From contig BGOU01000004.1 in assembly GCA_003569705.1 (NCBI GenBank), positions 1-64,000 on the forward strand: a stretch of DNA of 64,000 nt. Reading direction: 5' to 3'. Position numbers and translations under genes: made by a program. Shown one piece after another: positions 7,403 to 41,555 of this stretch. Numbering within the stretch: the stretch's first letter is position 1; every line of letters begins with the position of its first letter. The notes beneath the pieces were generated by a model, which was not told where the DNA came from, did not search any database, and saw nothing but the letters and a program-made list of their open reading frames with translations. The DNA is from Nitrosarchaeum sp. (GTDB taxonomy: Archaea; Thermoproteota; Nitrososphaeria; Nitrososphaerales; Nitrosopumilaceae).

Positions 7403-9477
7403 TTCCTATTTTTCTATTTTATTTTTTTATATTATTGAATTAATACATACTATATGTTATTTTGAAATAAATATGAAAAAAGAAATTAGAACACAAGCAT
7501 AATTTAATTATTCATAATGACACGATAGTTTTGGCATGTATACGTGATATCAGTTCTACATCTACTTTTCCAACTACTGCTGATGTATATATGATCTAGT
7601 TCACAACAATAACACTTATGATTTCTTTGTTACACACATTACAGTAAATTTACCTATCTCCTCTGGAACTATACATGCCAATATACTATTCATTTTAGGA
7701 CTATAAGACTAAATTCAACTTACAAAAACATCTGCAACTAAATTTCTTAGTACTGGAACGTATCTACAGGTAAAGAATTTATTGTAACCTTACTGAAAAT
7801 GATGTAGGCTCTACTTATACCGTCAAAGCTGATTTCTCTACTGATGTTGCAGTAGTATTACCATATACACTACAGATGAGGGGAGCAAATACAGATTCTG
7901 ACATTTTGTTTTTGGATCAAATATTATACAATGATATTACTTATTTGATATCTGCAACATTTACCTTTCAAGATTGACATTTACTGCTGTAGATCATGCA
8001 GCTGCAGGCCTGACATTGTGATGTAATAATTTATCATGATGAAGATAAAAGTTTTGAGGAAAGCGAATATCAAATAATTACAATTACTCCAAGTTTTACA
8101 CCAGAGTCTATACTGCAACAGTAGATGTTCCTGTTAACTCTAAATTTACATTAGATGATGGTTTTAGAAATTAAGAATCTAGTAAATCTATCAAATCACT
8201 TATGATCATTGTGATGCAAACAAAGTCATTCTAATTATAATGATCATATAAATTCAGTAAACAACACCATCTGAAATTGATACTACAAAACATTTCTTAG
8301 GACTAGATGCTTACTAATACCACATATGATACAATGAAAGATGATTGCTTGTAGGAAAACAAAGCAATACTAGTCTGGATGCAATGTCATCAGAGTAACC
8401 TTATCTTAATGATGAAAAATAAATGATTATACTATCTAGTTTAATCACATCAGATGTATGAAATTTTTAGTTATTGCAAAAGACAAACATCATTGCTTTG
8501 AGGTATAACCTGTTGTGTAAAATTATTATTGTACTGCACTAATCTGCATATATTTTCTCAAAGAATTCATCATAGTTAGCTAGAATGGATTAAAAACGAC
8601 ACAAGTGATAATCAGATGTAATTACTGATGATGATACATTTGTAAACAAATTTACTATCTGACGAATAACAAAATTATCAAAGTGAATTAGTCTTCATCT
8701 AATACTTTGATTATATAATTCAGTTCATATCTATAGAAAGACCAGATTAATTCTATAATTTTTTTTAATAAACCCATTAACTTCTGCTTTAATTTTTTCT
8801 ATCCATTAACTTGTTAAAAATAACAGCTCATATTTGCATTTGATAATAGAAAAATTATACAAAATTTATTTCAATGTATTATGAATCAATTCTGATATAT
8901 ACAATATACATAATATTTTTTTAATTTTCTACACAATGTTTATCAAACAAATTAATTATGAATTTACTTTTAATCATAAAACTTACAAGTTTACTTTACA
9001 AATATTATTCTAATTCAAATATTGTATTTTTTTATTTTAAAATTGATTATTACATAATTCAATTTATTATGTTATTGTTTCAAAATTATTTTTTGCCAAG
9101 AAAAAAACCAATCTTTAAAATATCTTCTATATTTTATACAGCACATTTTTACTCATTAATATAATAATTTTAAATCATAATTTTATTATTATTTATAAAA
9201 TATTTTGTAATATTAATTTCTAAATCAAATGGAATTTTGATTGATTACAAATATTATATTTTAATCATAAATAATAATCAAGAAAACAAATTTCTCATTT
9301 AATTAAAAAAATCTATTTTATTGATGTTTTTATCAAAAAGATGGGTTTCCTATTTGGATTTTTTAATCAATAAAAATAACCAATTTGGAATCTGATCCAT
9401 TGTAAAAAATCCTCTCCTCTTACTAACTTTCCATCCTAAATAGTATCATGAACTGGATTTCAAAAAAGAATGGGTTA
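7403..9477. other. 2.1-kb gap without an intact gene: gene relic, then very AT-rich DNA
   Basis: No open frame here reads like a real protein along its length. Roughly 7500-8300 holds broken coding blocks (separate entry). From about 8300 to 9477 the DNA is extremely AT-rich with only short open stretches. A 68-codon frame at 8958-9164 is made almost only of Leu, Ile, Tyr, Phe and Asn, as expected from random AT-rich sequence. I see no RNA gene, terminal repeats or transposase remnants. The gap ends at the palindromes in front of the giant surface gene. Confidence 0.6.
7500..8190 (+). pseudogene. Relic of a secreted or surface protein gene, shattered by indels
   Basis: Coding-like blocks appear in changing plus-strand frames: FVTHITVNLPISSGTIHA (about 7625-7680), LTENDVGSTYTVKADFSTD and the following 40 residues ending YLISATFTF (about 7790-7975), LTFTAVDHAAAGLTL (about 7975-8020), HDEDKSFEESEYQIITITP (about 8035-8095) and TATVDVPVNSKFTLDDGF (about 8105-8165). 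Read in order they form a beta-rich extracellular protein. About one frame change every 40-100 bases is needed, far denser than in the other broken genes of this window. No start or stop can be placed. This may be a true pseudogene. Confidence 0.6.
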
Positions 9478-9545: not shown

Positions 9546-12500
9546 TTGATTAATTTGAAAAAAATTTTTGTAATATTTTTAATGATTGGTCTGTTAGCTG
9601 TTTTTCCAAATTACAGTATTCCAAAAGATAGCTATGCTGATAACTTAATTCAAGAAAATACTAATTCATTATCATATGAAAATACTAACTCATTATCATA
9701 TGAATCTAGTAAATCTATTTTACTAAATTTACATGAAACATTAAATCTTCAACTTGACAGCTCAAACTATAATCCAAAATCATTACCAACAAATGTGAAT
9801 TATAAAATTTCACTTGTCGATAATTTACATATTGATATCGATGACAAAAAATTAGATAAAATAATTCTAGTTTCAAATCCATATGATAAAATTAAATTAA
9901 TGGAACGAATAAGATCAAACAAGCAAGAAAATGTTTTCTCATCTGATAGTTATTTAATTTCAAATCCTTTAATCACAACTAATCTACAACATCTTAATGA
10001 TCCAATTGTAGTTAATAATGAATTTAATTTATTATCTTTTGACTTCAATTATTTTATTGATGATACTATTACAAAGATTAAATCCATTAATGAAATTTTC
10101 AAGTTAGATCAATTAACACAAAACTTTGATGGTCATCTTGTACTCATTTTCATTCCATTTATTGGATTTCTATTTTTTAAATTAGAGTATGGAAAAATAT
10201 CTATCGTAAGATCTAGATCATCATTAAGTTCATTTCTAGTAATTTTGCTAGTCTTCTCAGCATTTTCATCTCCATTTACAATCTCTTCTAATTATTATGG
10301 TTCTGCATATGCAGAAGAATTTTCATTTTCTGGTATAATGAATGATGATCTTATCAATCATTTGAACTCAAACAATGGTGTTAAAGTTACAATTGAACCA
10401 CTTTTAGCATCAGATGTTTCGGATAATTCAACAAATTCTAATACAGAATCAATCATTGATGCATCAACTGAGCCTATACTTAATTCTACATCAAATCTAG
10501 TAAACGCTACAACCACAGAGCCTATACTTAATTCTACATCAAATCTAGTAAACGCTACAACCACAGAGCCTATCATTGAATCAACTGGAACTATTTTATC
10601 TACAGAATTAGATTCTCTTCAAAATAAACTTACAGAAACTGAAATTCTTGCTAACCAAACATCAAGTTCCATTAAATTAGATGGTAACGATGATTTTGTA
10701 ACAATAGTCAATGAAACATCTACTGATAACTTAGCAGAACTAACAATTTCTTCATGGGTAAAACCAGATTATTCTCAAGGCTCTCAGGAATTTACTGTAA
10801 TTAGTAAAGATAACTCGTTTATTTTATCAATTAATAATCTAATCACACCAACAAAAATTGCCAAATTCTCAGTCTTTGATGGTATAAAATGGACAAGTGT
10901 CGAATCTACTAGTATAATTGATGAAAAATGGACACAACTAGGTGCCACATTTAATGGAACATCAATTCAAATCTATGTTAACGGACAACTAGAATCTACC
11001 AATACACTTGAAGATCAATTAACTTTATCTGTAAATGGCAAGCTTACTCCCACAACAATTGATTCTTTATCATCAGAAGCGGATATTGTTATTGGTGCAT
11101 ATGTTGATGTAAGAAAAGGTTCAGAACAAATTTCACAACAATTTTCTGGTCAAATAGATGGTGTTTCATTATTTAATTTACAATTGGATAATTCACAAAT
11201 TAAATCACTTTATGATGAAAAATCTGAATATTACCTGTCACAAGACTCTGTAGAAATTGATCTTGATGCAATATTGGCAGAAATAACAGCTGAACAATCT
11301 CTCAATGCAACCTCTACAGATCTAGTCAATTCCACCTCTACAGAACCTACTGAAATTACTGTTACTGAATTAATAGTAAATGCAACTCTAGATTCTGTTA
11401 AAGAAAGCTATCTAATTACAGAAAATGCTAAACTAACTTTAGAATTCTATAATGATACTGCTGTTTTGACAAATGAACTTGAAGAACTTGAAAATTCTTT
11501 ACTATTATTATCTGAATTAGAACAAAAATTAGAAGAACCAGTCATTGCTAATGCTACTGCAACAGAACCAACAGCTGATGAACAATTAAAAATAGATATT
11601 GCAAATATCAAAGAACAAATTCTATTACTAAAAGAAAAAATCAATATAATTAAAGCAAAAAAAGAACTTAATGAGCAAGACATCAAAGAATCTAAACTTC
11701 AACTTAAATCAATTCTAACAGAACTTGATCAAAATGCAAATAGTCTATCACAAAATAATGATGACATGACACAGCAAATACAAAACTCTACTAATAACAT
11801 TGAAGAAATTGGCGATGTAGAATCTGAAGATATAATTCAGAAAGATACATGGACTGGAAATGAAGAACAAATTACAACAGAAGTTTATGATGCACAAGGC
11901 AATCTTGTAGAGATAAAAACAAACTATGAAAAAATTAGAGATGGTAAATTCGAAATCAATCTAGACTTTGATGCAAATGACAAGCCAGGTCTTTACAAAG
12001 TAAAGACAACATTACTTGTAAACGGAGAAGAGCATACAGTAGAAAGCGAATTTGCATGGGGACTGGTATCACTAAACACTAAAAAAAGTACATACAAGCC
12101 AGGTGAGACTGCAGAGTTTGTAATTGTTGTATTGGATAACCAAGGACATCCAATAGGCGATGCTACACTATCAATGGATATTATTAATCCAAATTCCCAG
12201 ATTACACATCTGTCATCTGGAAATGGAATTGTTTCAGGTGCAGAAACAGGTCTTTATGATACTAAATTTGTAACTGGGGAAGAAGGGGTTTACACAGTTG
12301 ATATCAATGCAAAAGCAAATGGAATTGATACAAACTTTAGCACAACATTTAGTGTAAAATCATTTGTAGAATATGATATTATAAGAACTGCTCAAAGCAA
12401 GATAGATCCTGTTACTAATCCAAACTCCTTTGATGTAACAATTGACGTAAAATCATTTGTTGGAAGCGGACAGCTCACAATAAGAGAATATGTTCCGTCT

Positions 12501-14609
12501 ATATTTGACGTACAAACAGATGGCACAGTCAAACAAGTAGGAGATCAAAAGATCATAACATGGACCAAAGACCAAGTGAATAATTCTTCTACAGTATCTT
12601 ACAAATATTCAGTACCGTTAGAATACCCAAGACTGTATGCATTAGGAAAACTAGAAGTGATGCAAGATGGATATCCTCCATTTACTGAAGCTAGAAACTG
12701 GTTTGTAGCTGTGGATCCAGATTCCGCTCCTCAAAATAGAGGAGGCATGATCACATATGCTGATACTACTACTGGTACACCAAAATACAGATTCTATGAT
12801 GATACCGCAGCAACGAAATGGTCTACTGAAAGATCTGCTCTAAGCGTGGGTGCTGGAGCTATAAATCAACTTGTACTCAAAGCCAATCCCATTAGAGATG
12901 AATACATCCTAGTAACTAAAGACGCTAATTTTGATATTGTTGTTCAGATCAATGGCACTCATAGTAATGGTGTAAAATGTTGGGGTGATGGTACTACTTG
13001 TGGAGCAACAAAATCACTAACCACTAACACAGCTAATGTTGCGGCGATAAGAAGCTTTGATGTTGAATATGAGCAGCTTACAGGTAAAGCAGTCATAGTT
13101 TATTCTGATAACTCAATTACTCCAAAATACATCACTTGGGATGGATCTACTTGGTCTACTGCTACCAGTATTGGTCAAACCAAGCTTACTGGAACAAACA
13201 TAGAATGGATTGAAATGGCTGAAAAACCTGCCTCAAATGAAATTACTGTAGCATTCTCTGATACCAACGATGACTTGAATGCAATGATCTGGTCAGGTTC
13301 ATCATGGGGAGGAGAACCAGGAGCTGTATTAAATATAAGTCTTGGAGCATCAGATTTCTACAAATTTGATGTATCGTATGAGGGAATCTCTGGCGATCTT
13401 ATTATCTACTCATCTAACTCTACTGCATCGGATCTTGTAAGTCATACAAGAGTAGGAACAACATGGACAACTCTAACTCAGACAGGATATACAGAAAATG
13501 GTATTGGAGGAGTTGACTTGTCCGAACCTGTTTCTGGAACTAATTATGTTTATGTCGGAAATCTTGATTCTGGTTTCTCAGATATGGGTGCAGGTGGATG
13601 GACAGGTACTGCAGAAATATCAAATGCTGTTTGTCTTGACACATCAACAAGAACTCAAGCAGCAGGAGGTCGTGAAGTCAGTGCTGGTTATCTTGGAGCC
13701 TCTACAAAAGAAGGTCTTATAGTTTATGCAGATAGTACCGGAACAGGATTAGATTATTGTACTTATAGTGTTGCTGGATCTGCATGGACCTTACAAACTG
13801 ATCTTACAACTTCTCCTGCAGTGGGATTAAAAACAAACATTCAGACTTACAAATTTCCAACTCAAAATAAAGTGATGATTGTATTTGAAGATGCAAATCA
13901 AGATCTCTATGCCAAAACATATGATGGAACAACATTAGTTAATACTGAGGGAGGTAGTGCATTAACAGCTAGTCTTGCAAATCTTGAGTTCCTTACATTT
14001 GATTTTGCTTTTAAAAGAGCACCATTCCAAATCTCACTAACTGAAAACCTCGGCATCACCGACTCTACAACAAAGACAAAATCCATAACAAAATCACTAA
14101 CTGAAAACCTCGGCATGAAAGACGCAGTATCGGCTACTGTAACCAAAAACATCTCACTAACAGAGAAACTCGGCATGACAGACGCAGTTACAAAATCCAT
14201 AACAAAATCACTAACTGAAAACCTCGGCATGAAAGACACAGTATCAACTAACATCTCCACTACAATCCCACTAACTGAAAACCTCGGCATGAAAGACACA
14301 GTATCACTTACTAGATCCATAAACATCCCACTAACTGAAAACCTCGGCATGACAGACGCAGTTACAAAATCCATAACAAAATCACTAACTGAAAACCTCG
14401 GCATGAAAGACACAGTATCAACTAACATCTCCACTACAATCCCACTAACTGAAAACCTCGGCATGAAAGACACAGTATCAACTAACATCTCCACTACAAT
14501 CCCACTAACTGAAAACCTCGGCATGACAGACGCAGTTACAAAATCCATAACAAAATCACTAACTGAAAACCTCGGCATGAAAGACACAGTATCACTTACT
14601 AGATCATAA
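9546..14609 (+). CDS. Giant surface protein, N-terminal part (LamG, coiled coil, beta domains, start of repeats)
   Basis: This 1687-codon frame is the first piece of a gene that originally ran to about 19159. It begins at TTG 9546 with a signal-like segment (hydrophobic about 6-22). Two more hydrophobic stretches lie at about 197-213 and 224-245, the second ending in SAYAEEF like another signal-peptide cleavage site. Then follow two 16-residue repeats (NSTSNLVNATTTEPI), a LamG/concanavalin-like domain (about 375-560, with ISSWVKPD and IQIYVNGQ), a charged coiled coil (about 580-750), an MG2-like domain (about 840-930, STYKPGETAEFVIVVLD), a beta-rich region with repeated ITYADTT/IVYSDNS-type motifs (about 1065-1490), and the LTENLG repeats. 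An extracellular, adhesive role is inferred. The frame stops at 14607 because one C is missing relative to sister repeats. Confidence 0.8.
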   Translation: MINLKKIFVIFLMIGLLAVFPNYSIPKDSYADNLIQENTNSLSYENTNSLSYESSKSILLNLHETLNLQLDSSNYNPKSLPTNVNYKISLVDNLHIDIDDKKLDKIILVSNPYDKIKLMERIRSNKQENVFSSDSYLISNPLITTNLQHLNDPIVVNNEFNLLSFDFNYFIDDTITKIKSINEIFKLDQLTQNFDGHLVLIFIPFIGFLFFKLEYGKISIVRSRSSLSSFLVILLVFSAFSSPFTISSNYYGSAYAEEFSFSGIMNDDLINHLNSNNGVKVTIEPLLASDVSDNSTNSNTESIIDASTEPILNSTSNLVNATTTEPILNSTSNLVNATTTEPIIESTGTILSTELDSLQNKLTETEILANQTSSSIKLDGNDDFVTIVNETSTDNLAELTISSWVKPDYSQGSQEFTVISKDNSFILSINNLITPTKIAKFSVFDGIKWTSVESTSIIDEKWTQLGATFNGTSIQIYVNGQLESTNTLEDQLTLSVNGKLTPTTIDSLSSEADIVIGAYVDVRKGSEQISQQFSGQIDGVSLFNLQLDNSQIKSLYDEKSEYYLSQDSVEIDLDAILAEITAEQSLNATSTDLVNSTSTEPTEITVTELIVNATLDSVKESYLITENAKLTLEFYNDTAVLTNELEELENSLLLLSELEQKLEEPVIANATATEPTADEQLKIDIANIKEQILLLKEKINIIKAKKELNEQDIKESKLQLKSILTELDQNANSLSQNNDDMTQQIQNSTNNIEEIGDVESEDIIQKDTWTGNEEQITTEVYDAQGNLVEIKTNYEKIRDGKFEINLDFDANDKPGLYKVKTTLLVNGEEHTVESEFAWGLVSLNTKKSTYKPGETAEFVIVVLDNQGHPIGDATLSMDIINPNSQITHLSSGNGIVSGAETGLYDTKFVTGEEGVYTVDINAKANGIDTNFSTTFSVKSFVEYDIIRTAQSKIDPVTNPNSFDVTIDVKSFVGSGQLTIREYVPSIFDVQTDGTVKQVGDQKIITWTKDQVNNSSTVSYKYSVPLEYPRLYALGKLEVMQDGYPPFTEARNWFVAVDPDSAPQNRGGMITYADTTTGTPKYRFYDDTAATKWSTERSALSVGAGAINQLVLKANPIRDEYILVTKDANFDIVVQINGTHSNGVKCWGDGTTCGATKSLTTNTANVAAIRSFDVEYEQLTGKAVIVYSDNSITPKYITWDGSTWSTATSIGQTKLTGTNIEWIEMAEKPASNEITVAFSDTNDDLNAMIWSGSSWGGEPGAVLNISLGASDFYKFDVSYEGISGDLIIYSSNSTASDLVSHTRVGTTWTTLTQTGYTENGIGGVDLSEPVSGTNYVYVGNLDSGFSDMGAGGWTGTAEISNAVCLDTSTRTQAAGGREVSAGYLGASTKEGLIVYADSTGTGLDYCTYSVAGSAWTLQTDLTTSPAVGLKTNIQTYKFPTQNKVMIVFEDANQDLYAKTYDGTTLVNTEGGSALTASLANLEFLTFDFAFKRAPFQISLTENLGITDSTTKTKSITKSLTENLGMKDAVSATVTKNISLTEKLGMTDAVTKSITKSLTENLGMKDTVSTNISTTIPLTENLGMKDTVSLTRSINIPLTENLGMTDAVTKSITKSLTENLGMKDTVSTNISTTIPLTENLGMKDTVSTNISTTIPLTENLGMTDAVTKSITKSLTENLGMKDTVSLTRS
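10470..10565 (+). repeat. Two identical 48-bp tandem copies in the surface gene
   Basis: Two perfect copies of a 48-base unit encode the 16-residue motif EPILNSTSNLVNATTT twice, followed by the beginning of a third (EPI). Perfect identity at DNA level points to a recent duplication. The unit carries N-x-S/T sequons that AglB could glycosylate. Confidence 0.85.
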
Positions 14610-16917
14610 ACATCCCACTAACTGAAAACCTCGGCATGAAAGACACAGTATCAACTAACATCTCCACTACAATTTCACTAACTGAAAACCTCGGCATGAA
14701 AGACACAGTATCAACTAACATCTCCACTACAATCCCACTAACTGAAAACCTCGGCATGACAGACGCAGTTACAAAATCCATAACAAAATCACTAACTGAA
14801 AACCTCGGCATGAAAGACACAGTATCAACTAACATCTCCACTACAATCCCACTAACTGAAAACCTCGGCATGAAAGACACAGTATCAACTAACATCTCCA
14901 CTACAATCCCACTAACTGAAAACCTCGGCATGACAGACGCAGTTACAAAATCCATAACAAAATCACTAACTGAAAACCTCGGCATGAAAGACACAGTATC
15001 AACTAACATCTCCACTACAATTTCACTAACTGAAAACCTCGGCATGAAAGACACAGTATCACTTACTAGATCCATAAACATCCCACTAACTGAAAACCTC
15101 GGCATGACAGACGCAGTTACAAAATCCATAACAAAATCACTAACTGAAAACCTCGGCATGAAAGACACAGTATCAACTAACATCTCCACTACAATTTCAC
15201 TATCTGAAAACCTCGGCATGAAAGACACAGTATCACTTACTAGATCCATAAACATCCCACTAACTGAAAACCTCGGCATGACAGACGCAGTTACAAAATC
15301 CATAACAAAATCACTAACTGAAAACCTCGGCATGAAAGACACAGTATCAACTAACATCTCCACTACAATTTCACTAACTGAAAACCTCGGCATGAAAGAC
15401 ACAGTATCACTTACTAGATCCATAAACATCCCACTAACTGAAAACCTCGGCATGACAGACGCAGTTACAAAATCCATAACAAAATCACTAACTGAAAACC
15501 TCGGCATGAAAGACACAGTATCAACTAACATCTCCACTACAATTTCACTATCTGAAAACCTCGGCATGAAAGACACAGTATCACTTACTAGATCCATAAA
15601 CATCCCACTAACTGAAAACCTCGGCATGACAGACGCAGTTACAAAATCCATAACAAAATCACTAACTGAAAACCTCGGCATGAAAGACACAGTATCAACT
15701 AACATCTCCACTACAATCCCACTAACTGAAAACCTCGGCATGAAAGACACAGTATCACTTACTAGATCCATAACATCCCACTAACTGAAAACCTCGGCAT
15801 GACAGACGCAGTTACAAAATCCATAACAAAATCACTAACTGAAAACCTCGGCATGAAAGACACAGTATCAACTAACATCTCCACTACAATCCCACTAACT
15901 GAAAACCTCGGCATGAAAGACACAGTATCACTTACTAGATCCATAAACATCCCACTAACTGAAACCTCGGCATGACAGACGCAGTTACAAAATCCATAAC
16001 AAAATCACTAACTGAAAACCTCGGCATGAAAGACACAGTATCAACTAACATCTCCACTACAATCCCACTAACTGAAAACCTCGGCATGAAAGACACAGTA
16101 TCACTTACTAGATCCATAAACATCCCACTAACTGAAAACCTCGGCATGACAGACGCAGTTACAAAATCCATAACAAAATCACTAACTGAAAACCTCGGCA
16201 TGAAAGACACAGTATCAACTAACATCTCCACTACAATCCCACTAACTGAAAACCTCGGCATGAAAGACACAGTATCACTTACTAGATCCATAAACATCCC
16301 ACTAACTGAAAACCTCGGCATGACAGACGCAGTTACAAAATCCATAACAAAATCACTAACTGAAAACCTCGGCATGAAAGACACAGTATCAACTAACATC
16401 TCCACTACAATCCCACTAACTGAAAACCTCGGCATGACAGACGCAGTCTCTGCAACTAAAACAAAGACACTCTCATTAACTGAAAACCTCGGCATGACTG
16501 ACACAGTATCACTTACTAGATCCAGAATCATCCCACTATCTGAAAAATTAGGCATGAAAGACACAGTATCAACTAACATCTCCACTACAATCCCACTAAC
16601 TGAAAACCTCGGCATGACAGACGCAGTCTCTGCAACTAAAACAAAGACACTCTCATTAACTGAAAACCTCGGCATGACTGACACAGTATCACTTACTAGA
16701 TCCAGAATCATCCCACTATCTGAAAAATTAGGCATGAAAGACACAGTATCAACTAACATCTCCACTACAATCCCACTAACTGAAAACCTCGGCATGACAG
16801 ACGCAGTCTCTGCAACTAAAACAAAGACACTCTCATTAACTGAAAACCTCGGCATTACAGACTCAATGCAACGTATTGCTCATCTTACAATAAGATTTAC
16901 TGAAAACCTCGGTTTAG
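14037..16917 (+). repeat. Array of about 50 LTENLG units with a 174-bp higher-order period
   Basis: The unit is 18 or 20 residues (54 or 60 bases) starting L(T/S)E(N/K)LG(M/I)xD. Three main types alternate: LTENLGMTDAVTKSITKS (18), LTENLGMKDTVSTNISTTIP (20) and LTENLGMKDTVSLTRSINIP (20). In the middle they recur in that order as a 58-residue, 174-base super-unit. Near the 3' end a second super-unit appears (MTDAVSATKTKTLS, MTDTVSLTRSRIIP, LSEKLGMKDTVS). My count is about 50 units. Internal copies are nearly identical, edge copies diverge, as expected from unequal exchange. Three copies lack a single base (near 14606, 15771 and 15963), which breaks the frame. Confidence 0.9.
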
Positions 16918-17324
16918 ATCAAGCAGGATTTTCATATGCTCTTTTAGTTGGTCAAACCACTGTCATAACACCAACTCCTGACTCTACTATTGTTCCAATA
17001 ACTACTTCTAATTCCAAGATTGAAGTTCCAACTGGAGGATTTACTGGATCCAGTGTGACAATTAATGTTAGTGATGTTACTGATGCAGTTCTTGACTTTA
17101 ACTCAGGTAATACAGTAACTCTAACAAAGCCTATGATAATCAACAATGACTTCCATAATGATGCAACACCAGATGTTAAAACAACAATTTATGCAAATAC
17201 CCAATTATCTGGAACTAATTGGGATAGTAACTTCAAAATCGTCACTACTAATACAGTTACAGTACCAACTAGTACATCAGATTCTACCACTACCACATAT
17301 TCAGATGCAATCGAGTTGAACTAG
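14610..17324 (+). CDS. Giant surface protein, repeat region and following beta domain (frame interrupted)
   Basis: Continuation of the gene from 9546 through two open pieces, 14636-15784 and 15972-17324, separated by single-base losses. After the last repeat (about 16917) the protein becomes Thr/Val-rich without LTENLG motifs (SYALLVGQTTVITPTPDS, then a region rich in VTVPTSTSDSTTTT), which looks like a distinct beta domain. The stop at 17322 (LN then TAG) is again a frame break, because matching protein (LTTINLSKPLRVEFKNG) continues in another frame at once. Treat these as parts of one gene, not as separate proteins. Confidence 0.7.
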
Positions 17325-18533
17325 GATCCAGCTCACTACCATTAATCTTTCAAAACCATTACGTGTTGAATTCAAGAATGGAGCCGCTCTATATGATGTA
17401 GGATTTGTAAAATCATTTGATGGAACTACACAAATAGTTACCACAACATGTGTTGCAGATGATGTTGATAATACAGGACTTGCAGCTGGAGCAGCATGTA
17501 TCATTGATGGTCCAACTGACTTTGTAGTATGGACTAGACATCTCTCTGTTGTAGGATCAGCAAGAGCTCCAACACACCATCTTCATCTAGCGGATCTACT
17601 ACCAGTTCTACTAGCGGATCTACTAGCGGTGGAGGCAAAACAGGTGTAGGACAGGTGGCGCTAGCAGAGGATTGGGAGGATTTGGTGGAATCTTGGGCAC
17701 CTCATTGACAATAAATGAGATCAACTATGACAGATGTGTAGAAAATATGGCTACAATTCTAGTCTCAAGTGATGCTGACAAGGCCCCATCTGTAACTGTT
17801 CACACTGCAAAGTCAGGATCAGTCATAGCCAACTAGCAGATAACCAACCATATGAGCAATCAAACAAGATTACAAAATTGACAAATATCTCTATGAAATT
17901 CCAATTACTTCTGATGAGACATTCTTAATGGTAGTTGTTACTGAAGAAAAAGGAGTATCTCACAATACTGTCCAGTCAGCAATTCATCTTACATCATGTG
18001 AAGGAGCAACAGTAATCAGTAAAGTCCCAAAAGAAACACAGGAAGAGATTGCATCATCTGCACCAAAAATATTTGATATTAAATTCCAAATTGAAAATAA
18101 CACCCAACAAAGATCAGAGACTGAATCTGAATTCTTGTATGTAGATAATCAAGACTTGAGTGTCTCTGCAATTGTAGATGCACAGACTACACTGCAGAGA
18201 AGCGAACTCAGAGTAATCACTATGGGACAATCACAAGAAGATTATGTTGCAATCAAAATGGATGTAGAGTCATTACCAATTTCAAATTCCACATATGTAA
18301 TTAGCGCAACAATCCCATCATATCTGATGCAGGAACCAGCAATTTCATACTGGATTCATGTAATTGATCAGGATCTAAATGAAGCAGAATCAAAGCAATA
18401 CAACATTGGTGTAAAACCAATCTCTGTTGGCGATATTTCATTTGAGATGGACATTTCATCAATCAAAGAAAGCGGTTCACTAGTTAGACCCAAATTATTT
18501 GTAGATAACAAGATCTACCATCGTACGGTATAG
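17325..18533 (+). CDS. Giant surface protein, linker and C-terminal region (frame interrupted)
   Basis: Continues the same gene in pieces. A block with TTTCVADDVDNTGLAAGAAC (about 17335-17570) leads into a low-complexity Ser/Thr/Gly linker (SSSSGSTTSSTSGSTSGGG, about 17580-17640), then GGFGGILGTSLTINEINYD, and the long frame 17928-18533. Joining them needs about five indels (near 17322, 17575, 17650, 17830 and 17860). Four of the five are explained by adding one base to a two-base run. The ATG at 17928 is internal, not a true start. The region looks like extracellular beta domains. Confidence 0.6.
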
Positions 18534-19159
18534 TATCTCTATTTGTAAATGGAGATGTCATATCCAAGAAATCACAGTTATTTGCAACTGGAGAAACAAT
18601 TGTTAATCTTGAATGGAAATCTCCAAACTTGGGTGAGCACATCATATATGATGTAATGGCAAGTGTTGATTTGTATGACAAATCAATTTCTACACAGTCT
18701 GCCAAACTACACATTTATCCAAAAACGATAACCATGTTAGCCTCAGATATAAAGCCACTAGAATCCATTACAGAAAATGATACCGTATTGGCAGACCCAG
18801 CACTAATTTATGCATCAAACTCTATTGATCAAAACTTGAGATTCCGTGTAATAGCTCCAAATGGTCAATGTATAATTGGTGTCTCAGAAGAATGTGCAAT
18901 ACATGACAGTACAGCAAATCAACGTGGCGGATTGGCAAGTATTGAATATGAAGATCAAATTATTAGAGTAAGATACAGTGGTCCAGAGAATTCACTTGAA
19001 AGATTCTCAATTACATCAATTGATCCACTAGTAAATCACTGGACTGTATCACTAGAAACATCTGATGGAATTGTTCCTCAAGCACAAGCAATCAAAGACA
19101 TGTCTATCAAAGTAAAGTATAGAACATATTCAGAAACAATTACTGTTAATTCCGAGTAA
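18527..19159 (+). CDS. Giant surface protein, C-terminal end
   Basis: The frame is open from about 18527 (GIVSLFVNGDVISKK) to the stop at 19159. The first ATG at 18629 is internal, since the reading matches directly onto the previous piece with one base added near 18526. The sequence is a beta-rich extracellular domain (IIYDVMASVDLYDKS, RFRVIAPNGQC) and ends in ETITVNSE without a C-terminal membrane helix or sorting tail, so anchoring must come from the N-terminal hydrophobic segments or from non-covalent binding. The convergent glyS gene ends 20 bases later. Confidence 0.6.
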   Translation, partial: GIVSLFVNGDVISKKSQLFATGETIVNLEWKSPNLGEHIIYDVMASVDLYDKSISTQSAKLHIYPKTITMLASDIKPLESITENDTVLADPALIYASNSIDQNLRFRVIAPNGQCIIGVSEECAIHDSTANQRGGLASIEYEDQIIRVRYSGPENSLERFSITSIDPLVNHWTVSLETSDGIVPQAQAIKDMSIKVKYRTYSETITVNSE

Positions 19160-28199: not shown

Positions 28200-28740
28200 T
28201 TGCTACTAGTCATTGATAATGGTTCTATCTATACAAAAAATTTACTTGATTTTTTAAATTACAAAAAAATCTCATTTGAAAAACAAACGCCTGAACTATT
28301 TGATTTAAAATCACTAATAATTACAACTCGTTTATTCTCTCTGGAGAAGAAAAAATGAAAAAATAATAAATAAAATCAATTCCAAAATAATTAATCATGC
28401 AATTCAAAACGATAAGAAATTATTGGGGATTTGTTACGGTGCAGAAATATTGGCTCTGACTTTGGGTGGAACAATTCGAAAACTTGCATTCCCTCAAAAA
28501 GGTAATGAAAAAATTGACATTCAAAGAGAAAATCTTCTTTCCAATGACGATTTACAGGTATTTGAGAGTCATGGATTTGAGATTTCTAAATTACCAAATA
28601 TTTTACTTGTAATAGGCGAATCCAAAAACTGTAAATTTGAAATTATTCAATATGATAAAAAACCAATTTTTGGAACTCAATTTCATCCTGAAATGAGTGA
28701 CGATGGTAAAAATTTGATTCAAAAGTTCTGCTCTCTCTGA
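28200..28740 (+). CDS. Class I glutamine amidotransferase, GMP-synthase-subunit-like (two frameshifts)
   Basis: Class I glutaminase domains release ammonia from glutamine for a partner synthetase. From TTG 28200 the frame reads LLLVIDNGSIYTKNLLDFL, breaks near 28322, is shifted again near 28358, and continues to the stop as KLLGICYGAEILALTLGG (nucleophile Cys), VFESHGFEISKLP and FGTQFHPEMSDDG (catalytic His and Glu). Adding one base at each break gives about 180 residues, the length of archaeal GuaA glutaminase subunits. The second break is a six-A run that should be seven. The synthetase half is not nearby, so the GMP synthase assignment is by resemblance only. Confidence 0.7.
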
Positions 28741-35193: not shown

Positions 35194-35989
35194 TTAGTTC
35201 TCTCTGGTTTTTTTAGATTCTTCTCTGGTAAATTTGAATGAACCTTTTTTCTTTTCTATGCTTTCTTGAATTTCCACTATTATTGGTTTTAGTGTTTTTT
35301 CAGCAGATTTGAAATCTTCTGAAGTAATAGATAGTCTATATTTTGGTGCACCTAAATAAGTAATATCTATTGAGGGATCTTTTTTTGTTGCATCTAAAAG
35401 TGCTTTTTTAATAATTTCAACTCCATCTGATTTGTTATTTGTAATTTCCATAATCCCTCTGATTTCAACTGAAGGAAGTTTGATTTTAGAACATATTTCT
35501 TCAATAATTGATGCCGTTTTTTTAGGAATCTTTAACTCTATTATTGATTCTATTCCATTTCTTCCAATTTCAATAAAAGCATCATAAACAGAATCAAATT
35601 TTGAATAAATACTATCTTCTAATTTTTCAATATCTTCATCTGAAAGTTTTCCCTTTTCTTTAACATTTTCTAGTAATGTTTTCCCTTTTCAAATTTCTTG
35701 ACTTCTTTTAACTTCTGTTTTTTTGATCTTTGGATACTTGTTTTAATGAGAGATCTATGTCTCCTCTACCTAAATTTACTTTTTTTACTAGTAATACCTT
35801 TTTTTCTCCATCTTTTACAAATCTACTAACTGATCTAATCCAACCTGGTGCTATTTCTGAAATATGTAAAAATCCTTGAATATCATTATATTCATCTAAA
35901 GTTACATAAGCCCCATGATCCATTACTTTGGTTATTGTAGCAAGAACAATTTCTCCTTGTTCTGGCATCTCTTGAACTTCAGTAGACAT
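35194..35989 (-). CDS. Translation initiation factor aIF2 alpha subunit (two frameshifts)
   Basis: Alpha subunit of aIF2. The first piece (35708-35989) is the S1 domain: PEQGEIVLATITKVMDHGAY and GFLHISEIAPGWI. The third piece reaches back to about 35660 and contains the alpha-beta domain (VEIRGIMEITNNKSDGV, ITYLGAPKYRLSI). Between them lies the helical domain. Frame breaks occur at a seven-A run (should be eight, near 35726) and a four-A run (should be five, near 35684). Adding one A at each restores one protein of about 265 residues. As the gene is essential, the breaks are probably consensus errors. Directly upstream of nop10. Confidence 0.85.
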
Positions 35990-36654: not shown

Positions 36655-38006
36655 TTGAAAGTCCCAAGAATTACATTAGCAGGAGCTACTAGTGGAGTTG
36701 GAAAAACATCAATAACTTGTGCAATTATCTATGCTTTACAAAAAAAGGGTTTTTCTGTACAACCATTCAAAGTAGGTCCAGATTACATTGACCCAAGTTA
36801 TCTTTCAAGCATATCAAAACATGAAGCATTTAATCTTGATGTTTGGCTAATGGGAGAAAATCAAGTTTTGGAGAGCTTTGTATCTAATTCAAAATCAGAC
36901 GTTTCTGTTATTGAAGGAGTAATGGGGTACTATGATGGATTTGGTGGGGATTCAAACTATGCTAGCACTCAACATGTTGCATCTATAATAAAATCTCCTG
37001 TGATTTTAATATTAGATGCAAGTAAAACTGCTAGATCAATTGCAGCAACAGCACTTGGATTTCAAAAATTTCACAGAAATTCTAGAATTTCAGGAATTAT
37101 TCTAAATAAAATTGGTAGTAAAAACATGAAATTTTATGTAGACAAGCACTTGAAAAAACAAAACTTCCAACTATCGGAGTAATTTATAAAAATTCAGAAT
37201 TAAATTTTGAATCCAGACATCTGGGATTAATTCCAGCAGAAGAAAAAAATCTTAAATCAAAAATTGAAAAAACCTCTAAAATAATATCCGAATCACTTGA
37301 TATTGAAAAAATTATTCAAATTATGAAAAATCCCTTACCCCTTGCAAAAAAATCTAAAATTATAATAAAAAAACCAAAAACTACCATCTCTATTGCACTT
37401 GATAGTTCTTTTAATTTCTATTATCGTGATAATCTAGAAGCATTACGACGTGAAGGTGCCATTCTAAAGTTTTTTAGTCCAATATATCATGAGAAACTTC
37501 CAAAATCTGATGGAATTTACATTGGAGGTGGTTTTCCGGAAATTCTTGGTGATTTACTTGAAAAAAATCATGTTATGCGAAAAACCATAAAGAAATTATC
37601 TGAAGAAAATACTCCAATCTATGCCGAATGTGGAGGATTGATGTATCTTACAAAATCTATTGATTACGGAAATAAAAAATTTAAAATGATTGGTCTGTTT
37701 GATGCAGAAACAAAAATGACTAAAAAAATGAAATTAAATTATACAAAAGGTAAGATAATTTCAAAAAATATCATTTCAGATAAAACACATGATTTACGAG
37801 GACACGAATTTCATTATTCTGAATTAGATTCTGTTTCTTCTGATTCAAAATTTGCATATGAATTAGATATTGGTGAAGGAATTAAAAATCATAAAGATGG
37901 CATGATTCAATACAACACCTTAGCATCATATGGACATCTTTATTTTGATAGTTCTAATTATGCCAAAATTTTTGTAAAAAATTGCATTGATCATTCAAGA
38001 AGATGA
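36655..38006 (+). CDS. cobB: CobB/CbiA cobyrinate a,c-diamide synthase (one frameshift)
   Basis: Amidates the a and c side chains of the corrin ring using glutamine and ATP. Starts at TTG 36655 with the P-loop LAGATSGVGKTSI, then FKVGPDYIDPSY and VIEGVMGYYDGFGG. The frame ends at 37182, but the protein continues in the next frame as LEKTKLPTIGVIYKNSE from about 37148. Losing one base in GACAAGCA (near 37145) explains it. The rest to 38006 holds the glutaminase domain with IYIGGGFPE and the nucleophile in YAECGGLMYL. Corrected length about 450 residues, normal for the family. Its 3' end overlaps cbiC on the other strand by 12 bases. Confidence 0.88.
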
Positions 38007-38636
38007 TTCTGCTCTTACAAGCTTGTATAATGCATTAATTATTGCAGATGCTGAAGAACTACCACCTTTCCTTCCTTTATTAGTGATAAATGGTGCCCCT
38101 TCTAATTTACTCAATTCTTCTTTTGACTCTGCAGCACAAATGAATCCTACTGGAATTCCAATGATTAATGCAGGTTTGATAATGCCTTCTTTTACCATTT
38201 GTATTACTTCAATAAGGGCAGTTGGAGCATTACCAATTGCAACAATTCCACCATCAATATCTGATGATGCTTCCCTCATTGATACCTGAGAACGAGTTTT
38301 ATTTTCTTTTTTTGCAATTTCCATTATTTCTGGATTTGAAATATTGCAAATAATCTTGTTTTGAAAATCTTTCGGATTTTGCTTATTCAAACCACCGATT
38401 ACACCATTTACATCAACTACAATACTACATCCATTTTTTAGAGCATTCATTCCACTTTCAATAGCTTCTTTATGGAAAATTACTCTATTTTCTCTTGCAA
38501 AATCAAAATCAGCAGTTGAATGAATTATTCTTCTGACAATGGGCCATTCTTTTTCATTATATTGATGAGTACCAATTTCCTCATCAATCATTTGCATACT
38601 TGCATCTTCAATTGATTGACCCTTTCTAGTTTGCAT
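37995..38636 (-). CDS. cbiC: CbiC, cobalt-precorrin-8 methylmutase
   Basis: Moves the methyl group from C11 to C12 to give cobyrinate. The 213-residue protein has the catalytic His in VRRIIHSTADFDF, then NGCSIVVDVNGVIGG, GGIVAIGNAPTAL and PVGFICAAESKEEL, all family motifs. It is the last gene of the reverse-strand run cbiD-cbiG-cbiX-cbiC, and its ATG overlaps the end of cbiX. Confidence 0.94.
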   Translation of the reverse strand: MQTRKGQSIEDASMQMIDEEIGTHQYNEKEWPIVRRIIHSTADFDFARENRVIFHKEAIESGMNALKNGCSIVVDVNGVIGGLNKQNPKDFQNKIICNISNPEIMEIAKKENKTRSQVSMREASSDIDGGIVAIGNAPTALIEVIQMVKEGIIKPALIIGIPVGFICAAESKEELSKLEGAPFITNKGRKGGSSSASAIINALYKLVRAESSS

Positions 38637-39377
38637 TTTCTACCTCTTTCGCTCTTTCTATTATTAACTCGATCATTTTTTCATCAGCTCCCAAATGTTT
38701 TGTAATGTATGTCTTTTTAATATTAGAATTCTCTAGTGCCGGTAAAAGATCATTATTGATATCAGTTTTGACATGCGCACCTTCATGTAAGAAATAAAAT
38801 ACAATTACAAGAATCTGAGGATTATTTTTTTCACAAATCTTAATACCTTCTACAATGTCAGGCTGTTCTATTTCTAACCAGCATCTATTTACATTTCTAT
38901 AATTTTCTTTAACCCATCCACAACATAATCTAATGACATTTGTGCATTGGGATCTTTACTACCATGTCCAATAATTAGTACATCTACATCCTTTTTTGGA
39001 ATTGTAACATGATTTTTCTGCAATGTTGTAGATATTCTGTTCTCAACTAGATTGATCAGAGTTTTATGCATGCTCATTGGTTTTGTGACAACAAATTTCA
39101 CTTTGGTATCTTTCTGAAATTTCATAACATCTGTAACTGCATTTTTTACTTTTTTTCCAGGATACAGAAAATAAGGAACTATCGTTAAATGATCAATATT
39201 TTGTTTAAGACATTTTGCAATTCCATCTTCAATGTATGGTGGTTCTACTTCAAGAAAACAGTACTCTGTAAAAACATAATCTCCCTTTGCTTTTATCGCA
39301 TTGCAAATAACTTCCAATTCTTCAGAAGCTTCTCTTTCCCTACTACCTCTATCGATTAGTAATAATCCACGTTTCAA
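38626..39377 (-). CDS. cbiX: CbiX, sirohydrochlorin cobaltochelatase, two-domain form (one frameshift)
   Basis: Inserts cobalt into sirohydrochlorin at the entry of the pathway. The first frame (38889-39377) starts MKRGLLLIDRGSREREASEE and covers the first chelatase domain and the start of the second (VLIIGHGSKDPNAQMSLDYV). The frame breaks near 38903, then reads VNRCWLEIEQPDIVEG, FYFLHEGAHVKTDI and ERAKEVENAN to the stop at 38626. One missing T (TTT to TT) restores about 250 residues. In the first domain the usual His of the HGS motif is Arg (DRGS), while the second keeps GHGS and HEGAH. The start lies within the 3' end of cbiG. Confidence 0.85.
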
Positions 39378-40425
39378 TCTAATATCCTCGCTATGGCTAT
39401 CGTCAAATTTGGTGGAAATTTCTGTTTTTCAACAATTAATTCTCCGCCAGAAACTTTGATTGCGGCAGCTTCTGATACACTGGAAGTTCCTTCAAATGCT
39501 TTGACCGTATCTGATGGATTCGGTGCAGAAATTTCTGCCAAATCTTCTCTATTCACATATTCCACAGTAATTCCCATTTCTTTTCCAATATCAACTAGTC
39601 CCTTGACATCTTCTGGTTTTTTTATTGAGACTAATTTTACAATAGATTTTTCACTAAGTTTGAATTTTTGTAAACAAAAATCCAATCCTTCCTTTATGAT
39701 CTCCTTAGATGTATCCCAATGCAATCCAATTCCTACCACAAGACTAGGAGGTCTATACACTACAGAATTTTTGAGAAAATCTCCTTCTAGAATTCTATCA
39801 GAAATTATCAAATATCCAATAGAGCCAGAATTTTTCATTTCATCTAAATTCTGATAAATTTTTACATTCTTTGGTAATTCTTTCCACCAATTAATTTTGC
39901 CTGCTTCTTGGTAAACCCCTATATTTTCTTCATTTACCATATGTGCACTAATTTTAGTCACTGTAGAATCATCATCTATTTTCCAACCAAATTCTCTTCC
40001 AACAAGATCAACTGCTATTGTTTTATTGACATCAGCAGCAGTGGTAATTACTGGTATTGCATCCAGTTTTTGAGCAATAATTGTGTTAATTCATTTGCTC
40101 CACCTAAATGTCCAGATAATACACTGATTACAAAATTAGTTTTATCGTCAATTACAATTACTGCAGGATCTGTTTTCTTATCTTTCAAGTGTGGTGCAAT
40201 CAATCTAATTACTGCACCTAAAGAAAATAAACAAATCAATGCATTATTGTTTTTAAAAAGTTCAACAATTTTTTCAGATGTAGTATCTGAATACCAAACT
40301 ATTTCCTTATTGCCATTTGAAAATTTAGATGGTGCAAAAATCTCCCAGGTTGGAAAAAATTCTTTTAGTCTTAACCCTATGCTTACCCCATTTTTGGTAA
40401 TTGCAAGAACTGCAATTTTTTCCAT
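39374..40425 (-). CDS. cbiG: CbiG, cobalt-precorrin-5A hydrolase (one frameshift)
   Basis: Opens the delta-lactone of cobalt-precorrin-5A, releasing acetaldehyde. The N-terminal piece has ALICLFSLGAVIRLIAPHL, ITKNGVSIGLRL and SGHLGGANELTQLL, all CbiG signatures. The frame ends at 40048, but the next frame continues from about 40075 as AQKLDAIPVITTAADVNKT and on through the C-terminal domain (VGIGLHWDTSKEII, EGTSSVSEAAAI). One base missing in the CAATTATTG stretch explains the break. I start at ATG 40425 (MEKIAVLAI); a TTG two codons earlier is also in frame. Overlaps the cbiX start by 4 bases. Confidence 0.87.
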
Positions 40426-40462: not shown

Positions 40463-41555
40463 CTAGAACTTTCTAGCCAAGATATTTCCATCGAAATCAA
40501 ACAATATGACATCTAATGGGACTTTTTCTTCTGAATGTTTTCTCATGTGTTGTATGTCTCATTACATATTTCCTCAAAGAATCCATTAACATTATTTTCT
40601 ATAATTATTTCAGATACATGTCTGGCAGTATTTGCCGTCTTTATGCTCTCAATTATTCTTTCATTTGCATTACATTTCCTAGCTAACTCTGCCAAGAAAT
40701 TCATATCTACCTTGGAACCTTTGACATGTGTTTGTTTTACTCCTGCAGCCATTTTTGCCAATTTACCAATAAACCCTACAACATATGCTTTTTTGATCTC
40801 TTTTCTTGCACACTGTTGTATTGTATACCCAGAAAAATCACCCATCTGCACAAAACAATGTTCTGGCAAATCTACAATTTTTTTTGCAAAATCTTCACTT
40901 CTTCCACCAGTTGTAAGAACAACAGTATCATTTCCCATTGCAATTGCTACATCAAGATTTTGTCTAATTGAAGCAGCATATGATGCAGTTGAAAATGGTA
41001 TTACAATGCCACTAGTTCCTAAAATTGAAATTCCATTTAAAATACCAATTCTTGGATTGTCTGTTTTAGGACCTAATTCTTTTCCTTTTGGAACAGAAAT
41101 TATAACTTTGATTCCTTTTTTTAAAAGTATTTGTCTATGATCTCTCTCAGATTCTCATTAATCATTTTTTTTGGAACTGGATTGATTGCAGCTTTGTTTA
41201 ATTCAAGACCTAATCCAGGTTTGGTAACTATTCCTACTCCCTCTCCACCATCAATTTCAATTTCATTAATCTTATCTGTAAATGATAGCTCTACTACAAT
41301 CTCTGCACCGTGAGTGACATCTGGATCATCTCCACCGTCTTTAATCACAGAACACTTGGATCTACTTTTATCAAATTGGCATAAATGAATAGGAATTTTG
41401 ATAAAACTTCCTTTGGGTAATTTGACATCGATATTTTCAATTTTTGTTTGATTAATTATAGATAGTAATGCGGCTTTGGCAGCTGCTGTTGCAGAAGTAC
41501 CAGTAGTATACCCAGTCCTCAACTTTTCTTTTTTTATCTCTTCCACACTAATCAT
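40463..41555 (-). CDS. cbiD: CbiD, cobalt-precorrin-5B C1-methyltransferase (two frameshifts)
   Basis: Methylates C1 in the oxygen-independent route. The first piece (41121-41555) begins MISVEEIKKEKLRTGYTTGT with SATAAAKAALL and VIKDGGDDPDVTHGAEI, clear CbiD motifs. The second (from about 41120) continues LLKKGIKVIISVPKGKELG, GNDTVVLTTGGRSEDFA and VGFIGKLAKMAAGVKQTHVK. The third ends HSEEKVPLDVILFDFDGNI to the stop at 40463. Breaks lie at an AAA that should be AAAA (near 41127) and at GAGACATACAA, which should gain an A (near 40550). Corrected length about 365 residues. First gene of the reverse cobalamin run. Confidence 0.87.

Follow-up and report, generated by a model that had tools for sequence, protein, structure and literature searches.

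The single bases missing from a repeat array and from dozens of other genes in the draft genome of an ammonia-oxidising archaeon of the genus Nitrosarchaeum almost certainly reflect errors of sequencing or assembly, and the apparent pseudogenes in this draft are untrustworthy. The missing bases represent an artefact of an ordinary, well-known kind. The draft (G000) comprised 10 contigs with a total of 1,462,514 bp (~1.46 Mb) and its closest named relatives were Nitrosarchaeum MAGs. The window analysed was the first 64 kb of contig C4 (69,995 nt). Intact proteins from seven relatives were searched against the window with frame switches taken as the signal of a lesion, and lesions were called from tblastn frame switches together with local alignments, which at the window lesions included up to eight relatives. 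A strict DNA-level intersection of gaps over all relatives was dropped, as gap placement varied between alignments and most lesions escaped it.

A large surface-type gene (9546-19159, forward strand) encoded Laminin_G_3 and MG2 domains (Pfam), about 48 copies of a repeat of ~20 aa (TENLGMxDxV) and a conserved C-terminal region that aligned to intact relatives. Within it was a tandem array (about 14049-16908, forward strand) with a higher-order unit of 174 nt (60+60+54 nt) and 49 complete units, forty-six of which were exactly 54 or 60 nt long while three were short by one base at 59 nt each. One-base losses relative to sister copies had been predicted at about 14606, 15771 and 15963, and all three were located at these positions on the forward strand. 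The first was CC to C at ~14606 (14601-14608) in the B-type unit 14571-14629 (AGATC-ATAAAC) and led to a stop codon, TAA, at 14607-14609. The second was AAA to AA at ~15771 (15766-15774) in the B-type unit 15734-15792 (CCATAA-CATC), and the third was AAAA to AAA at ~15963 (15960-15966) at the end of the B-type unit 15907-15965 (CTGAAA-CCTC).

All three array losses were in unit type B, which accounted for 12 of the 49 units. Losses aside, no unit of type A, B, C or D lacked an identical copy elsewhere in the array. Any further variation within these four repeated types was shared by two or more units, which left the three deletions as the sole private changes in types A-D, and no private substitution or insertion was identified in them, in agreement with the original prediction that the rest of each repeat was identical. 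The near-identical units are an internal gauge of error that works without the need for reads. Since the three losses total -3, the upstream frame (ORF 9546-14609, phase 0) was restored past 15963, where it continued as ORF 15972-17324 (phase 0), and the array between the first and last loss was read in the other two phases. More losses in the same gene (17324-18512, forward strand) were placed by alignment at 17652, 17831, 17880 and 18510, and two at about 17324 and 17575 were indicated by frame changes only. The gene was read in pieces because of these single-base losses.

The array was also open over 382 codons of the -1 sense frame and contained long ORFs on the antisense strand (226, 390 and 306 aa; window 13907-16855), and ORF callers may therefore report spurious genes there. 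The unit type with all three array losses contains CTAG, which could hint at a base-calling error near a modified motif. Related repeat arrays were detected in L014 and L010 of the relatives by a loose pattern search, and other 60-nt repeats were present near the large surface-type gene on the relatives' contigs L016 and L017.

Genes outside the array were also broken on contig C4. Two losses each were identified in a class-I glutamine amidotransferase (28200-28737, forward strand, 180 aa in relatives; ~28316 and ~28345), in aIF2alpha (35197-35989, reverse strand, 265 aa in relatives; ~35690 and ~35721), which is the only copy of its family in the genome, and in CbiD (40466-41555, reverse strand, 364 aa in relatives; ~40552 and ~41128), also the only copy and matched in two pieces. 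An insertion in aIF2alpha, hinted at by its frame change, was rejected as the full alignment resolved into two deletions. One loss each was identified in a CbiA/CobB-type cobyrinate amidase (36655-38003, forward strand, 450 aa in relatives; ~37121), CbiX (38629-39377, reverse strand, 250 aa in relatives; ~38905) and CbiG (39377-40425, reverse strand, 350 aa in relatives; ~40082), the last being the only copy. An NFACT/RqcH-like gene at the contig start (1-1436, reverse strand) was frame-broken with candidate sites at ~147, ~350 and ~829, and Pelota at the far end of the contig had three frame breaks. At each aligned window lesion the extra base was present in all relatives that covered the site, up to eight in number. 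The original prediction had explained the broken aIF2alpha, cbiD, cbiG, cbiX and a glutaminase by a one-base loss. Comparison with the relatives' proteins confirmed these breaks as real, but aIF2alpha, CbiD and the glutamine amidotransferase had two losses each, and the list, correct as far as it went, omitted CbiA/CobB, NFACT and the four aligned sites downstream in the array gene.

A genome-wide census identified 42 frame switches in 389 kb of sampled own coding DNA, or 1.08 per 10 kb. The reciprocal test on 385 kb of the sister genome G003 gave at most five, at least one of which was spurious, its source being an ORF of the own genome that lies antisense to cbiG. The own rate was at least 8 times that of the sister genome. 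The genomes G008, G007 and G003 compared against each other had 0 frame switches in about 140 kb. Switches were located on eight of the ten contigs irrespective of gene function and included housekeeping genes; genes broken elsewhere were GluRS, TiaS, hisG, histidinol dehydrogenase (hisD) and an adjoining aminotransferase, prephenate dehydratase and ThiD/ThiN.

The lesions were patchy (dispersion 3.1, p 5e-5), with seven breaks in his genes and TiaS in a region of ~11 kb on contig C3 (8.5-19.6 kb; L086, G000:C3:8500-19600) and eight in C4:28.3-41.2 kb, and no lesion was detected in C4 41.2-64 kb relative to G003. This patchiness suggests a local shortage of depth or polishing. Contig ends had 1.44 switches per 10 kb versus 0.88 for the rest, a mild difference in the raw rates, and both ends of C4 were affected. 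A contig-end effect as the cause was rejected, given that the excess was only mild.

At the resolved sites, nearly all switches were due to the deletion of 1 nt. One clear insertion (C2:150122) was present among the 42, and a few alignments were messy. Outside the window, fifteen of thirty losses touched runs of at least 5 bases as compared to a background of 8.6% of random positions (p 4.5e-9). Most losses in the window were in runs of 1-4 bases and many in runs of 1-3. Seven to eleven of the 15 window losses were in ancestral runs of at least 3 (24% expected) and only one or two in runs of at least 5. The coding stretch of the window contained 188 homopolymer runs of at least 6, and only one or two of the 15 placed losses (37121, perhaps 35721) were in such runs. 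The homopolymer-prone process that had been proposed was therefore evident genome-wide (p about 5e-9) but weak in the window, and the scarcity of window losses in long runs means that a purely homopolymer-driven platform fails to explain them. A process that is deletion-prone and worse in homopolymers was the best fit, over one driven purely by homopolymers.

Motifs near the losses bear on a sub-type of consensus error in which base calling fails systematically at a modified motif, either CTAG or GATC. Out of 136 tetramer classes, these two ranked highest near window losses (GATC 6/17, CTAG 5/17), and CTAG had a weak excess near losses outside the window (5/30, within about 14 nt, p 0.027). 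The enrichment of GATC and CTAG in the window was not, however, significant after correction for 136 motifs, and such a motif-linked error is unlikely. An error linked to GATC in particular was rejected since this motif, although the top tetramer of the window, was not enriched outside (1/30).

Consensus sequences from Nanopore reads carry homopolymer indels that result in frameshifts, and polishing with short reads is required for bins of low coverage (PMC9262707). Errors in long-read (Oxford Nanopore R9-type) metagenome consensus resemble those observed here as single-base indels that split gene calls, are enriched in homopolymers and are worse where coverage is low or polishing is lacking (PMC9262707). 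The window differs from the R9-type pattern in its many losses in runs of 1-3. The platforms 454 and Ion Torrent produce single-base length errors that are concentrated in longer runs and occur in both directions. The losses in this genome are similar to these as single-base length errors in runs, but nearly all were deletions and many were in short runs.

Genuine pseudogenes likewise have a broken frame and fragments called as separate ORFs. Unlike them, the broken genes in this genome had no accumulated substitutions, showed intact purifying selection and included essential genes. The dN/dS of broken genes did not differ significantly from that of intact neighbour genes in comparisons with three relatives (p 0.30, 0.86 and 0.054), and no second locus was identified in the genome for the four families checked (aIF2alpha, CbiD, CbiG and GluRS). 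These results uphold the earlier caution that predicted gene fragments should not be taken as pseudogenes without a check. The region 7420-8760 of the window consisted of decayed-looking coding DNA with many stops and with coding-like stretches, all of them short, in each of the three frames, and had a partial, gapped paralogous match of 73% identity at G000:C10:104599-105157. It is probably a real pseudogene, or else a very error-rich patch, in contrast to the lesion sites, which were single bases missing from otherwise well-conserved genes.

The normal dN/dS would also be compatible with real frameshifts of extreme recency, arising for instance in a bottlenecked lineage or culture with selection lost on many genes, and the absence of the lesions from relatives is as expected of private mutation. 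Single-copy essential genes were, however, broken, some of them two or three times (aIF2alpha, Pelota, GluRS), and the lesions were nearly all -1 and clustered. Real decay also brings substitutions and larger indels, as in the 7.4-8.7 kb remnant, and these were absent at the lesion sites. Recent mutation of this kind is very unlikely, and it is just as hard to credit that the losses are real in the sampled population, in which case this ammonia oxidiser would somehow have to tolerate, or read through, many fresh frameshifts in its essential and cobalamin genes. Strand-slippage polymorphism or phase variation of the array, with a surface protein switched on and off in part of the population and the consensus having caught the off state, is more improbable still, for although the tandem repeats encode a surface-type protein and the array is open over 382 codons in the -1 frame, slippage between units would add or remove complete units of 54 or 60 nt and keep the frame, rather than change one base in a run of 2-4, and the same lesion occurred in many non-repeat genes genome-wide.

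We therefore consider it highly probable that the lost bases reflect errors in the assembly consensus and not mutations of the organism, as the original prediction had proposed. The nearly uniform loss of 1 nt, shared by none of up to eight relatives, the single-copy housekeeping genes hit, the normal dN/dS, the genome-wide rate and the patchiness all support consensus error. The errors would stem from reads prone to deletions, most likely long ones, whose depth or polishing was locally insufficient. Single bases would have been dropped from the consensus preferentially in homopolymers, although runs of 1-3 were affected as well, and each loss would shift the reading frame and split a gene call, with the near-identical array units exposing three of the losses without outside data. 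The cells themselves presumably carry full-length genes.

With a frame break roughly every 9 kb of coding DNA, the draft would mislead claims of gene loss in this archaeon, such as the loss of cobalamin synthesis or of aIF2alpha, and its large repeat protein falsely appears split in pieces.
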